A DNA stretch of 64,000 nt, taken from Enterobacteriaceae endosymbiont of Donacia bicoloricornis (GTDB lineage: Bacteria > Pseudomonadota > Gammaproteobacteria > Enterobacterales > Enterobacteriaceae). Positions within the stretch are counted from its first letter, which is position 1, and the number at the start of each line of letters is the position of its first letter. Shown in pieces: positions 6,781 to 20,006 of this stretch. The translations under genes were made by a program, and so were the position numbers. The notes beneath the pieces are model-generated. The model saw only the letters and a program-made list of their open reading frames with translations, ran no database searches and was not told the origin of the DNA. The DNA lies in the NCBI RefSeq assembly GCF_012567955.1, contig NZ_CP046186.1, positions 239,712 through 303,711 on the forward strand, given 5' to 3'.

Positions 6781-8586
6781 TTAATTATCTAAAAAACTTT
6801 TTAATATTTCTGATCTACTAGGATGTCGTAATTTTCTTAATGCTTTTGCTTCTATTTGTCTAATTCTTTCTCTTGTTACATCAAATTGTTTCCCAACTTC
6901 TTCTAATGTATGATCGGAATTCATATCAATACCAAATCTCATTCTTAATACCTTTGCTTCTCTTGGTGTTAAACTAGATAAAATATTATATGTTGCTGTT
7001 TTTAAACTTTCTGAAGTTGCGGAATCTAATGGTAGTTCTAAAGTACTATCTTCAATAAAATCACTTAAATGTGATTCATCATCATCTCCTATAGGTGTCT
7101 CCATTGAAATAGGTTCTTTAGCTATTTTTAATACTTTTCTGATTTTATCTTCTGGAATAAGCATATATGAAGATAATTCTTCAGGAGTAGGTTCTCTACC
7201 TAGTTCTTGTAAAATTTTTCTGGAAACTCTATTAAGTTTATTTATAGTTTCAATCATATGTACAGGAATTCTTATTGTTCTAGCTTGATCAGCAATAGAT
7301 CTTGTTATAGCTTGTCTAATCCACCATGTGGCATATGTAGAAAATTTGTATCCTCTTCTATATTCAAATTTATCTACTGCTTTCATCAAACCTATATTAC
7401 CTTCTTGTATTAAATCAAGAAATTGTAAACCCCTATTGGTGTATTTTTTAGCAATGGAAATAACTAATCTTAAATTAGCTTCAATCATTTCTTTTTTTGC
7501 TTTTTGTGATTTTAATTCACCCATAGAAATTTTTTTGTTGATTTCTCTAATTTCTTTAATTTTTAATCCTGTTTTTTTTTCAATATTAATTAATTTAATA
7601 ATACTTTTGTTAATTTTATTAAAAAAATTGTTTTTTTCATTTAAATAAAATTTTTTTCTCAATTTAGAATTTTTTAATTTTTTTAAAAAAGAATCTGTAT
7701 TTGTTTCATTATTATAGAATATATATAAAAATTTTTTTTTTGATATATTATATCTTTTTAAACATATTTTTAATATATTAAATTCTTCTATACGTATATG
7801 TAACATTATAGAACGTATTTTAGATACTAAATAATTAAATTCTTTTGAAACCAAACGAAATTTCTTAAAAATTTCTGCAAGATTTTTTAATGCAATCAAT
7901 GTTTGACGATGATTTCTACCTTTTTTTTTAATAAAAATTAATGTTCTATAATATTGTTTTTCTAATTCTAAAAAATTTTTTTCTGCTAAATTATAATCTA
8001 TAATATTTTCATTATTTTCTGTTTTAATATTGTGAGATAATTCTTGATGGTTAAAAGAAGATATAATTTTTTCTTTAATATCATAATTAATAAAACCATG
8101 GATTAAATCTGATAAACGAATATCTCCAGATTTAACTTTATTATATTTATCTAATAAATATTTAATTGAATAAGGATATTTTGCTATAGAATATTGTACT
8201 TGATTAATACCTTCTTCTATACGTTTAGCTATATTTATCTCTCCCTCTCTTGTTAAGAGTTCTACAGTCCCCATCTCGCGCATATATATCCGTACTGGAT
8301 CTGTAGTTTTTCCCATTTCCGATTCTACATTAGATAATACTTGTACTGCATCTTCTGATGCTGTTAAATTATTTGTATTATTATTTAATATTAAATCATC
8401 ATTATCAGGAGCTTCTTCCATTACTTGGATACCCATATCATTAATCATTTGAATAATATTTTTTATTTGATGAGAATTAATAATATTATCAGGTAAATGA
8501 TCATTAACTTCAGAATAAGTTAAATAACCTTTTTCTTTTCCAAGTGTTATAAGAATTTTAAGCTGTGATTTTGAGTTATGATCCAT
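6781..8586 (-). CDS. rpoD: RNA polymerase primary sigma factor, sigma-70
   Basis: Housekeeping promoter-recognition subunit. Region 1.1 ([20 protein letters not shown]), region 1.2/2 ([27 protein letters not shown]), region 3 and region 4 ([30 protein letters not shown], the -35-binding helix-turn-helix) are all well conserved. The non-conserved region between 1.2 and 2 is rich in Lys/Asn and diverged. I chose the ATG at 8586 (601 aa) because [10 protein letters not shown] aligns with the E. coli N-terminus and GGAA precedes it; an in-frame ATG at 8598 would add four residues. It is last in the rpsU-dnaG-rpoD operon. Confidence 0.96.
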
Positions 8587-16677: not shown

Positions 16678-17010
16678 TTATTTTAAATTTTTATTTAAAA
16701 AATTTTCTAATTGTGTGATATTTATAGATCCAATTATTTTATCAATAATTTTTCCGTTTTTAAATAAAAAAACTGTTGGTATACTACGAATATTATATCG
16801 TTCTGCAATATTTTTATATTTTTCAATATTTAACTTGGTAAAAACTATATTTTCATATTTATGACATACTTTTTCTAAAACCTCAGAAAATATTTTACAT
16901 GGATTACACCATTCTGCCCAAAAATCAACTAAAACCAATTTTTTTTTTTCTATTTCAGATTGAAAATTTTTATCATTTAAATGTATTAAAACGTTATTCT
17001 TATGTTGCAT
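16678..17010 (-). CDS. trxA: Thioredoxin 1
   Basis: General protein-disulfide reductant. It is 110 aa (E. coli 109). The active site reads WAEWCNPCK with Cys35 and Cys38; the usual WCGPC has Asn in place of Gly. The cis-Pro loop RSIPTVFLF and the FKNGK turn are intact. It is followed by rho as in E. coli. A consensus-like promoter lies at 17135-17163. The retrotransposon block begins roughly 40-50 bp beyond that promoter. Confidence 0.96.
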   Translation of the reverse strand: MQHKNNVLIHLNDKNFQSEIEKKKLVLVDFWAEWCNPCKIFSEVLEKVCHKYENIVFTKLNIEKYKNIAERYNIRSIPTVFLFKNGKIIDKIIGSINITQLENFLNKNLK

Positions 17011-17134
17011 GAATTTAATATTCCTGTATAAATATTATATTTAATTATCTTTTATAAGATGAATATAAATATTTTAATTTTGTAATAGATTTTTTGATTA
17101 AATTCTATTTAAAATTAATTAATATTTTATTTTC

Positions 17135-17163
17135 ATTATATATAAATAATAATTGTATTGCAA
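17135..17163 (-). promoter_or_regulatory. Sigma-70 promoter of trxA
   Basis: Minus strand TTGCAA (17163-17158), 17-bp spacer, then a perfect TATAAT (17140-17135). The predicted start is about 120 bp upstream of the trxA ATG. The promoter lies outside the foreign block, so trxA expression need not depend on the insertion. Confidence 0.65.
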
Positions 17164-17204
17164 GATAATAAATAATATTTTAAAAATATAAGAAATTAAT
17201 ATAA

Positions 17205-19001
17205 AAAAGGCTTATTAATTCTTGGACATTTATATGTTGTGGTATTGAACAATTATTTCTGAGCAAATAAAAATTTACAAAGTTCTAATTTAAAGTTTCG
17301 AAGACTTAAAGACTTAATATTTTCCGGTATATTATTGTACTGGAAGGCTGCTGAAAAGGAAAACGAAGATTTATACATTTCCGTTCTATGCCTTGGTGTA
17401 TGCAGTGTTCTATCAACATAACGAAGCTGAGTTTGATGTAAGCTACCTCTAAACACTAATCTTTTATACAGATACAATGGCATACGATTTTGCAGAATTT
17501 TATGCACCAAGCAGATTAACCGATATTTCCATCTTTGGTTCATATTTAGTATGTTATTATTTATATAGAGTGGTGTAACATGCTGGGACCTTTTCGTTAA
17601 TGTCGCAAATCTAAGACATGAGTTTTGTATTTTCTGTAGTCTGTGTGCTTCAGACGTGGTAATACAAGAACCGAAAACTACACTGCCATATTCACAGGTA
17701 GATATAATGAGAGACTCGGTCAGCTTTATTTTTGTATCCGTAGGAAGTACATACCTAAAATTGTATAGCTGTCTAAGTTTCGCGTATGATGACTTTACAA
17801 TATTTGTTATGTGATTTTGGAAGGTTAAGTGTTGATCGAAAGTAATTCCTAAGTTTCTTGATGATTTGACAACTAAAAGATTTTGGCTCCCTATTTTAAC
17901 ATCCTGCCTCTGTGGGGTAAATTTAACATGTTTTGAATGAAAATTTATAACAACCGATTTGGTTGCATTTAGCTGTAAACAATGTGATGTAGAAAAGGAG
18001 AGAATATTTTGCAGATCTATGTTTAAAAGTTCCATTGCGACGTCCATTTCATCAGGGTGATAAGATATATACATTTGACTATCATCAGCATAATAATGAA
18101 TTTTTGTATATTTGACAATGTTAGGTAGATCACAAATGTAAATTGCGAAGAGTAAGGGACCCAAAATTGAACCTTGCGGCACACCAGATTTTATATTTAA
18201 ATACTGTGAAAAAACAACACCATTTTCTCCGCATAGTTTAACTTTTTGCTTACGATCTGTTAAGTAACTATGAAACCAATTTATTGAATCATCATGGACT
18301 CCAAAATAGCGGAGCTTTGCAATTAGTAGTTTATGATTAATAGAGTCAAAGGCTTTTGTGTAGTCCAGTAGAACACTAGTGGTTACTTTTGCTTCATCAA
18401 AGCTCTTCAGAATATCATCAGTTACCTCAAGCAGTGTTGTAATGGTACTGTGTGCTTTTCTGAAACCTGACTGATTTTGCGGTAATAACTGATTTGAATT
18501 TACATGAGTCAATAATTGATTCTGAACAACTCTTTCGAGAATTTTAGACATAACATTTAATAAGCTTATTGGGCGACAGTCGCTATAAGCCTCAGGGTTG
18601 GATTTTTTTGGCAGGGGAACAACAATTGCAGTCTTCCATGAAAGTGGAACGACATTTTTTGTAATTGAATAATTTATAATATGTTTTATGGTAGGAAGGC
18701 TATATGGTAGAAATAATTTCAGAATGTGTGTAGTAAATGTGTCCTCACCCGAGGAGTTCGACTTTATCAAAGATATGGAATCAATAATTTCCTTACTACC
18801 TACAGGACGGAGTCTTAGAGTAAATTTTGTTTTGGAACTGGAGTGGCTATATTTATGCAGTATTTCATTAGATAATGGAATGTTTGGGGCAGAATTCTGG
18901 AAGAATGTATTAAACGCGTCAGGGTTATTTAGTGTGTCAGGTAGAGTTGCACTATCCATCTTATTATATACATTAAGGTTTTTCAAAGTATTCCACCAAT
19001 A
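17205..19001 (-). mobile_element. 5'-truncated non-LTR (LINE) retrotransposon fragment of eukaryotic type
   Basis: The block is set off by base composition. At 18301-18360, 21 of 60 bases are G or C; at 19201-19260 only 5 of 60 are. Its single long frame is a LINE-type reverse transcriptase. Upstream of the RT there is no APE-type endonuclease and no ORF1. Family-like sequence (WWNTLKNLNV) extends to about 18998 and then meets a stop at 19004-19002 in A+T-rich bacterial-type DNA, as expected for a 5' truncation. The 3' end lies somewhere in 17190-17250. I see no clear poly-A tail and no convincing target-site duplication. Edges are estimates. A chimeric assembly with host DNA is an equally open explanation. 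Confidence 0.75.
17253..18986 (-). CDS. Reverse transcriptase of a eukaryotic non-LTR retrotransposon (jockey/CR1-like), partial
   Basis: Copies element RNA into DNA in LINE mobility. Over 577 codons without a stop the RT order is visible: WKTAIVVPLPKK (about 117-128), DCRPISLLNVMSKILE (136-151), NQSGFRKAHSTIT, motif A LLDYTKAFDSINH (206-218), SGVPQGSILGPLLF (267-280) and the catalytic YADD (299-302). The thumb-like NLGITFDQHLTFQNHI and a C-terminal jockey/CR1-like region follow. There is no endonuclease and no RNase H domain. The frame opens with TTG and is open for five more codons upstream, so no genuine start exists; it is the tail of a longer ORF2. Codon choice uses far more G/C than neighbours. 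No group II intron maturase domain is present, so a bacterial retroelement is unlikely. Confidence 0.85.
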   Translation of the reverse strand: MKNLNVYNKMDSATLPDTLNNPDAFNTFFQNSAPNIPLSNEILHKYSHSSSKTKFTLRLRPVGSKEIIDSISLIKSNSSGEDTFTTHILKLFLPYSLPTIKHIINYSITKNVVPLSWKTAIVVPLPKKSNPEAYSDCRPISLLNVMSKILERVVQNQLLTHVNSNQLLPQNQSGFRKAHSTITTLLEVTDDILKSFDEAKVTTSVLLDYTKAFDSINHKLLIAKLRYFGVHDDSINWFHSYLTDRKQKVKLCGENGVVFSQYLNIKSGVPQGSILGPLLFAIYICDLPNIVKYTKIHYYADDSQMYISYHPDEMDVAMELLNIDLQNILSFSTSHCLQLNATKSVVINFHSKHVKFTPQRQDVKIGSQNLLVVKSSRNLGITFDQHLTFQNHITNIVKSSYAKLRQLYNFRYVLPTDTKIKLTESLIISTCEYGSVVFGSCITTSEAHRLQKIQNSCLRFATLTKRSQHVTPLYINNNILNMNQRWKYRLICLVHKILQNRMPLYLYKRLVFRGSLHQTQLRYVDRTLHTPRHRTEMYKSSFSFSAAFQYNNIPENIKSLSLRNFKLELCKFLFAQK

Positions 19002-19391
19002 TTAACAATTTTAAAAATTCTTTTCTTGTAGGAAAGAAAATATTAAAATTATTGTAATTTACAATTAATACTTGCAATAAGTTTATCTAAAGTTAATAAT
19101 TTAAAAGCATTAATTAATACTCTAATTATTATTAAATATTATTTTATCTTTCTCAATAAATTATTAATTTTTTTATTTTCATATTAGATGATATGGATGT
19201 TTTAAATATTTTTTAATTTTTAAATTAGAATTTTTAAAACTTGGTAATTTATTAATACAAATTTTGTATATTATTATATTTATAATGTATAAAAATACAT
19301 AGTATCCCTTACTTAAGGATAATTATCTTATTATATAAATTTTTTAAAAAAATGATGTATTTTATTTCTTTATAAAATACATCATAAATAG
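19002..19391. other. Non-coding A+T-rich stretch between the foreign block and sodA
   Basis: About 390 bp with no credible gene on either strand; all frames are broken by frequent stops. Visible structure: a short hairpin at 19021-19040 (TTTTCTT/AAGAAAA), an imperfect TATCCCTT/AAGGATA hairpin near 19300-19320, and the sodA terminator at 19352-19385. Its composition is like the rest of the bacterial chromosome, so it belongs to the symbiont side of the junction. It could be the decayed remains of a lost gene, but I recognise none. Confidence 0.6.
19352..19385 (-). terminator. Intrinsic terminator of sodA
   Basis: A perfect 14-bp stem (ATGATGTATTTTAT at 19352-19365, ATAAAATACATCAT at 19372-19385) with a 6-base loop, starting 7 bp after the sodA stop. 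On the minus strand it is followed by a run of T, the layout of a Rho-independent terminator. Confidence 0.7.
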
Positions 19392-20006
19392 TTATTTATT
19401 TAAAAATAATTGTGTAACTTTATCCCAATTTAAAACATTCCAAAAAGCATTAAGATATAAATTTTTTTGATTTTGATATTTTAAATAATATGCATGTTCC
19501 CATAAATCTAATCCTATAATAGGTAAACTTGTTGATGTATTATCATCCATTAATGGATTATCTTGATTTATTGTTGTAATTATTTTTAACATATTTTTTT
19601 TTTTTATTAACCAAATCCATCCAGATCCAAAAAAATTTAAAGCTTTTTTTTCAAATTCTTTTTTAAAATTTATTAAATTACCAAATTCATTTTTTAAAAT
19701 ATTTAAAATAATACTATTTGGTTGAATATTTTTTTTTAAAATTTTCCAAAAAAAACTATGATTAGCATGTCCTCCTGCATTATTACGTAAAAATATTCTT
19801 TGTGAAGAAGGAATTGATAATTTATTTAAATTGGAAATTAATTTATTAATTTTAATATTTTCTATATTATTTTCTTGTAGTATTAAATTTGTATTATTAA
19901 TATAATTTTGATGATGTTTTTTATGATGTATTTCCATTGTTTTTGTATCAAAAAATGGTTCTAAATCTGAATATTTATATAACAAATTAGGTAGTTTATA
20001 AGTCAT
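19392..20006 (-). CDS. sodA: Superoxide dismutase, Mn type
   Basis: Converts superoxide to hydrogen peroxide and oxygen. It is 204 aa (E. coli SodA 206). The four metal ligands fall at His27, His83, Asp167 and His171 (DLWEHAYYLKY). The NNAGGHANHSFFW segment and the INQDNPLM segment carry the Gly/Gln pattern of manganese rather than iron enzymes. It lies 28 bp after aroE with an AAGGA ribosome site, so it is probably read from the tsaC-aroE transcript. Its own terminator follows. Confidence 0.95.
   Translation of the reverse strand: MTYKLPNLLYKYSDLEPFFDTKTMEIHHKKHHQNYINNTNLILQENNIENIKINKLISNLNKLSIPSSQRIFLRNNAGGHANHSFFWKILKKNIQPNSIILNILKNEFGNLINFKKEFEKKALNFFGSGWIWLIKKKNMLKIITTINQDNPLMDDNTSTSLPIIGLDLWEHAYYLKYQNQKNLYLNAFWNVLNWDKVTQLFLNK

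Follow-up and report, generated by a model that had tools for sequence, protein, structure and literature searches.

A LINE-type reverse transcriptase frame in a reed-beetle symbiont chromosome, probably host DNA misjoined in assembly

The window analysed here is a stretch of 64,000 nucleotides from the chromosome of the Enterobacteriaceae endosymbiont of Donacia bicoloricornis. Between trxA and a sodA-type superoxide dismutase gene it carries a block of foreign DNA, most of which is taken up by one long open frame (Table 1). The initial annotation had placed symbiont sequence and symbiont genes on both sides of this block, and the trxA and sodA flanks confirm it.

Table 1. Features of the trxA–sodA region (positions are those of the window)
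Feature	Position	Strand	Remark
trxA, left neighbour	16678..17010	-	
Symbiont spacer adjoining trxA	17011..17205	+	73-80% identity to the spacer of six near relatives (L112-L117)
Interval that holds dksA (plus strand) in 18 relatives; dksA missing here	17205..19040	.	
Foreign block	17206..19003	-	Frame, about 47 bp past its stop, and open frame to the right edge
LINE-type reverse transcriptase frame, 577 codons from TTG	17253..18986	-	C-terminal part of ORF2
Decayed ABC-transporter gene remnant and conserved inverted repeat adjoining sodA	19040..19391	-	Read by eye
sodA-type superoxide dismutase, right neighbour	19392..20006	-	Mn-SOD model PRK10925 242 bits, under the cut-off of 363

The frame of 577 codons without a stop is present as first described, and measured from stop to stop it comprises 582 codons, reaching approximately 19003; in 300 mononucleotide shuffles of 17205–19004 the longest open frame was 149 codons. 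The ordered reverse transcriptase (RT) motifs reported for it were likewise found: LLDYTKAFDSINH at 18371–18333, SGVPQGSILGPLLF at 18188–18147 and YADD at 18092–18081. Pfam returned RVT_1 alone (E 1.4e-31), so that the APE endonuclease, which the initial annotation names as lying upstream in animal LINEs with this type of RT, is absent from the block. Eight sequences of solved structures match the frame, namely 8c8j (RNA-directed DNA polymerase), two LINE-1 ORF2 proteins, three entries named R2 or R2Tg and two named reverse transcriptase-like protein.

To define the affinity of the frame by protein search, the 8,000 candidates with most common words were scored, of which at least 5,415 matched at E≤0.001; counts on LINE relatives refer to the best 119 of these 5,415 matches, the window's own protein being left out. 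Among the matches listed, the nearest three proteins are 50–52% identical to the frame; the nearest to bear a species name is from the seed beetle Callosobruchus analis (52% identity), and another of the three is 51% identical over 72%. Most of the best 119 of the 5,415 carry no species name; the five that do come from insects, three from C. analis and one each from C. chinensis and Plutella xylostella. Taken together, RVT_1, the LINE-like nearest proteins and the insect names among the matches listed bear out the assignment to a eukaryotic LINE type, which we take to be of the jockey/CR1-like clade.

An APE-type endonuclease domain (PF03372 or PF14529) accompanies RVT_1 in 86 of these 119 relatives, and in 107 the alignment begins no later than residue 5 of the 582-residue frame. 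In the 80 full-length relatives listed, the match to the frame starts at residue 332–387. The block thus shares its RT domain and motifs with insect APE-type LINEs, but is without the N-terminal 331–386 residues in which, in those 80 relatives, the endonuclease sits. The abrupt start inside ORF2 together with the lack of an endonuclease shows that the block is a fragment of an APE-type LINE rather than a complete element.

The left edge of the block lies at approximately 17205/17206, and alignments of the trxA-side spacer to the six near relatives stop at 17202–17208. The right edge falls between 19003, where LINE homology ends, and approximately 19040, where the remains of a symbiont gene (read by eye, and presumably yadG) begin. 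The block contains no N and is joined cleanly to both flanks. Common bases between the two edges were considered as a cause of the joining and rejected: the longest stretch common to 17151–17260 and 18951–19090 is 11 bases at most. A megablast of 17000–19300 against plasmids gave no match.

The base counts first given for the block and its surroundings are exact (21/60 G+C at 18301–18360 and 5/60 at 19201–19260). The broader claim, that the G+C-content of the block is clearly higher, holds against its edges (0.32–0.35 in 500-bp windows inside the block versus 0.14–0.24 across the edges). Such values are high for a spacer without being unique: the window also contains rho, which attains 0.318, and three other places on the chromosome, rRNA operons aside, exceed 0.33 (near 7251, 179001 and 315751). 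The contrast is sharper in third-position GC, which is 0.287 in the LINE frame, compared to 0.058–0.099 in seven neighboring genes.

In order to establish what normally occupies this position, the trxA–sodA spacer was compared in 18 relatives of the same genus, where it measures 1,483 to 4,225 bp; in near relatives a spacer with dksA can be 1.5–2.7 kb long, compared to 2.4 kb for the spacer with the LINE. In every one of the 18 it contains a frame on the plus strand, 148–183 codons long from stop to stop. In the nearest relative, G013, this frame is DksA (TIGR02420, 154.3 bits, cut-off 115.5), although with the stricter PRK10778 model it scores 239.6 bits, under the cut-off of 289. Across the genus, 23 of the 24 genomes have dksA; the D. 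bicoloricornis symbiont alone is without a match. DksA is listed among the four to five transcription factors of reed-beetle symbionts (PMC12508126).

The BLAST alignment to G013 breaks at window position 17206 and resumes at 19340, the interval up to 19339 standing against 1,246 bp in G013. Subtracting approximately 300 bp of yadG remains, as we assume them to be, leaves approximately 0.9–1.2 kb of symbiont DNA, including dksA, that has been replaced. Relative to its nearest relative, the block is therefore a replacement of the dksA stretch and not a simple insertion. In none of the 18 relatives are the flanks directly adjacent: all have DNA of their own there, with dksA, and 11 of the 18 also have both frames of an ABC transporter pair. 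A simple insertion into an intact spacer was rejected on these grounds.

The assembly itself provides some information as to how such a replacement may have arisen. It consists of two contigs of 458,627 bp and 5,086 bp, as in Table 1 of PMC7289800. As described there, the symbiont genomes other than that of Macroplea mutica were obtained from 150-bp Illumina pairs, from DNA of symbiotic organs (larval internal organs in one species), and assembled with SPAdes. Contigs of approximately 20% G+C, classed as Gammaproteobacteria and matching the Macroplea reference were kept; they were merged in Geneious or along the reference, with Ns inserted wherever parts were missing (PMC7289800). A text search of the main text of PMC7289800 found no mention of retrotransposons, transposable elements, reverse transcriptase or chimeras.

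The chromosome contains 21 N runs, comprising 8,952 N (examples are 206234–207218, 308491–309452 and 440670–441622). Collinear matches to G013 (E≤1e-10, on average 91.2% identical) cover 97.6% of it. Alignment breaks of at least 200 bp relative to G013 number 19: 18 have N on the side of the D. bicoloricornis symbiont, the one remaining being the LINE block (with a threshold of 250 bp, 14 of 15 have N). In G013, the stretches that correspond to these 14 N gaps extend into frames of at least 70 codons in 12 cases (one by just 18 bp), and four of them lie wholly inside G013 frames of 326, 769, 830 and 1,180 codons. Judged from these alignments, coding DNA is missing at the N gaps, without sign of gene loss. 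The gaps swallow coding DNA, and it is accordingly unsafe to read the absence of a gene from this assembly.

The breaks coincide with A+T-rich DNA. The 15 counterparts of breaks of at least 250 bp have a G+C-content of 3.7–14.2% in G013. With the LINE site excluded, 42% of the 109 G013 windows (150 bp) at 2–4% G+C fall in gaps, compared to 0.2% of the 19,320 windows at 20–30%. The G013 counterpart of the block is of the same kind, with 12.8% G+C overall and 2% over the initial 100 bp. Windows of 100 bp as poor as this occur in 12.5% of 1,246-bp segments of G013, and the low G+C-content of the site is by itself weak evidence. Among the 18 relatives, L118 has 192 N within this same spacer; the other 17 were assembled through it without N.

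Some N runs may be masking rather than assembly gaps. Three of the 21 in the D. bicoloricornis symbiont are 97–100 bases long, and G013 has eight of 95–99; such runs of approximately 100 bases may be masks or gaps of fixed size. The other 18 are irregular (51–985 bases), and in 11 of the 18 both 50-bp flanks have at most 20% G+C. The irregular runs fit the description in PMC7289800 of missing parts filled with Ns. Should every N run be a mask, the gap-based argument would no longer hold, while that from dksA and from the uniqueness of the block would be unaffected. Completeness (97.2) and contamination (0.02) flag no problem, although a single block of 1.8 kb is hardly detectable in this way.

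On the basis of these comparisons we consider it very probable that the block is LINE DNA of the beetle host, joined by mistake into the symbiont chromosome during assembly. This was one of two readings offered in the initial annotation, and it is favored by the fact that dksA is replaced only here, while 18 of the 19 breaks contain N and the site, with its G+C-poor counterpart, behaves like these other gaps. Furthermore, RVT_1 is found in just one of the 24 genomes of the genus (the control search matched in three of 14 known genomes). From the insect affinity of the frame and the tissue sequenced we infer the beetle as source, which would have supplied a 5'-truncated copy, or a collapsed contig, of one of its LINEs. 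Symbiont reads would have been lacking across the A+T-rich spacer that surrounds dksA, in the same way as at the 18 other places, and a host LINE contig would have bridged the gap in place of N. Where a LINE is present in many copies, these may be merged into a single contig whose high depth could let it through a coverage filter, and such a contig would be likely to display an intact frame. A host contig bridging a gap would explain in one step the replacement, the loss of dksA, the uniqueness within the genus, the undecayed composition and the intact frame.

Host contamination and chimeric joins are a known kind of error in endosymbiont assemblies. The present case shares with known chimeras the host-type DNA, the host tissue as source of DNA and the break-prone spot; it differs from known host contamination in that the block lies inside the main chromosome contig and not on a contig of its own. 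A counterpoint is that a pure LINE contig should fail the authors' filters unless it was already fused: given what was kept (approximately 20% G+C, Gammaproteobacteria, matching Macroplea; PMC7289800), a contig of LINE DNA alone would be expected to be dropped. If the block is an artefact, its predicted protein is a eukaryotic RT entered under a bacterial genome, and gene content taken from the assembly wrongly scores the D. bicoloricornis symbiont as being without dksA.

The other reading in the initial annotation, transfer from animal to bacterium, finds no support in a block that replaces, at a gap-like site, a gene which 23 of the 24 genomes retain, and we regard it as improbable. It would have a fragment of host LINE RNA or DNA integrate in the lineage of the D. 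bicoloricornis symbiont, with the loss of approximately 0.9–1.2 kb including dksA, either by target-primed reverse transcription or by capture at a break. Several points speak for it: the junctions are without N, and truncation at the 5' end is normal in LINE insertions. Anderson and Seifert reportedly found, in 2011, a human L1 fragment in Neisseria gonorrhoeae. That transfer is cited in PMC5135761, and is alike in that a fragment of a host LINE is claimed in a bacterial chromosome; here, by contrast, the fragment stands where a conserved gene is expected, and the assembly contains 21 N runs. Opportunity would exist, in that the symbionts are described as living in cells and in the lumen of the Malpighian tubules (PMC7289800), and LINE-1 is described as functional in Escherichia coli (PMC8654924).

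Against a genuine transfer stands, above all, the loss of dksA that it requires, a gene which all 23 other genomes retain. There is no other N-free break of at least 200 bp relative to G013, although real deletions could hide under N. LINE-1 is described as doing better in E. coli with added end-joining enzymes (PMC8654924), while a search for the Ku family alone, which matched in its Bacillus subtilis control, found Ku in none of the 24 genomes. Neither a 3' tail repeat nor a target-site duplication was seen by eye at the edges of the block, which are themselves uncertain, and these count for little: poly(A) payloads are described as inserting poorly in E. coli (PMC8654924), so that a missing tail is no argument, and the deletion would have removed a duplication, which makes its absence a weak one. 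Among the titles and abstract openings listed in literature searches, none described a LINE within the chromosome of an endosymbiont, which is no proof of absence. If the transfer were nonetheless true it would be remarkable: a host LINE in an obligate insect endosymbiont, with an intact animal RT frame in a 0.46-Mb genome, and thus intact animal mobile DNA in a bacterial chromosome, in a type of cell where two genomes meet. The deletion of dksA would then have cost one of the four to five transcription factors kept by these symbionts.

A third path would run through a copy of symbiont DNA in the beetle nucleus that had met a LINE, the assembler having preferred the nuclear copy. This would explain the clean junctions on both sides as well as the loss of dksA; however, the depth of such a copy should be far below that of the symbiont, so that it would compete poorly in assembly, and the two flanks of the block give no evident sign of a different, decayed copy. 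We consider it highly improbable. That the frame belongs to a bacterial retroelement (group II intron, retron, DGR or Abi type) is almost certainly wrong and was rejected: LINE-like proteins are the nearest among the matches listed; the match to the group II intron RT model TIGR04416, the one point in favor, is weak (49.4 bits, cut-off 300); most of the best 119 of 5,415 relatives have the endonuclease beside RVT_1, and the five that bear a species name are from insects; and in 394 genomes sampled from the order there are just 13 other matches, weak and partial (at most 24.2 bits), while two of 72,556 plasmid records match (22.6% and 28.3% identity) and none of 50,697 phage records.

Some further variation was seen in the same region of the relatives. 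The ABC transporter pair beside dksA (yadG and yadH, as we take them to be) retains its two long frames in 11 of the 18 relatives. In the other seven (L112, L118, L119, L120, L122, L125 and L128), which are symbionts of Donacia and Plateumaris, it is disrupted or missing; the pair has apparently been lost more than once. A match to the adenylate cyclase family (PF01295, covering the first 146–171 of 601 positions) occurs in four of the 24 genomes, two of the four matches having an internal stop, and 20 genomes are without a match. In the Plateumaris symbionts L125, L127 and L129 these matches lie near dksA in the spacer; a CRP regulator is reported for reed-beetle symbionts (PMC12508126). In the relative G017 (L121, 190–1623) rho is in two pieces approximately 100 bp apart, the product of an assembly gap or a broken frame. 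Finally, in G006 (L123, 421–843) an additional open stretch of 141 codons, presumably rhodanese-like, lies on the plus strand between trxA and dksA.
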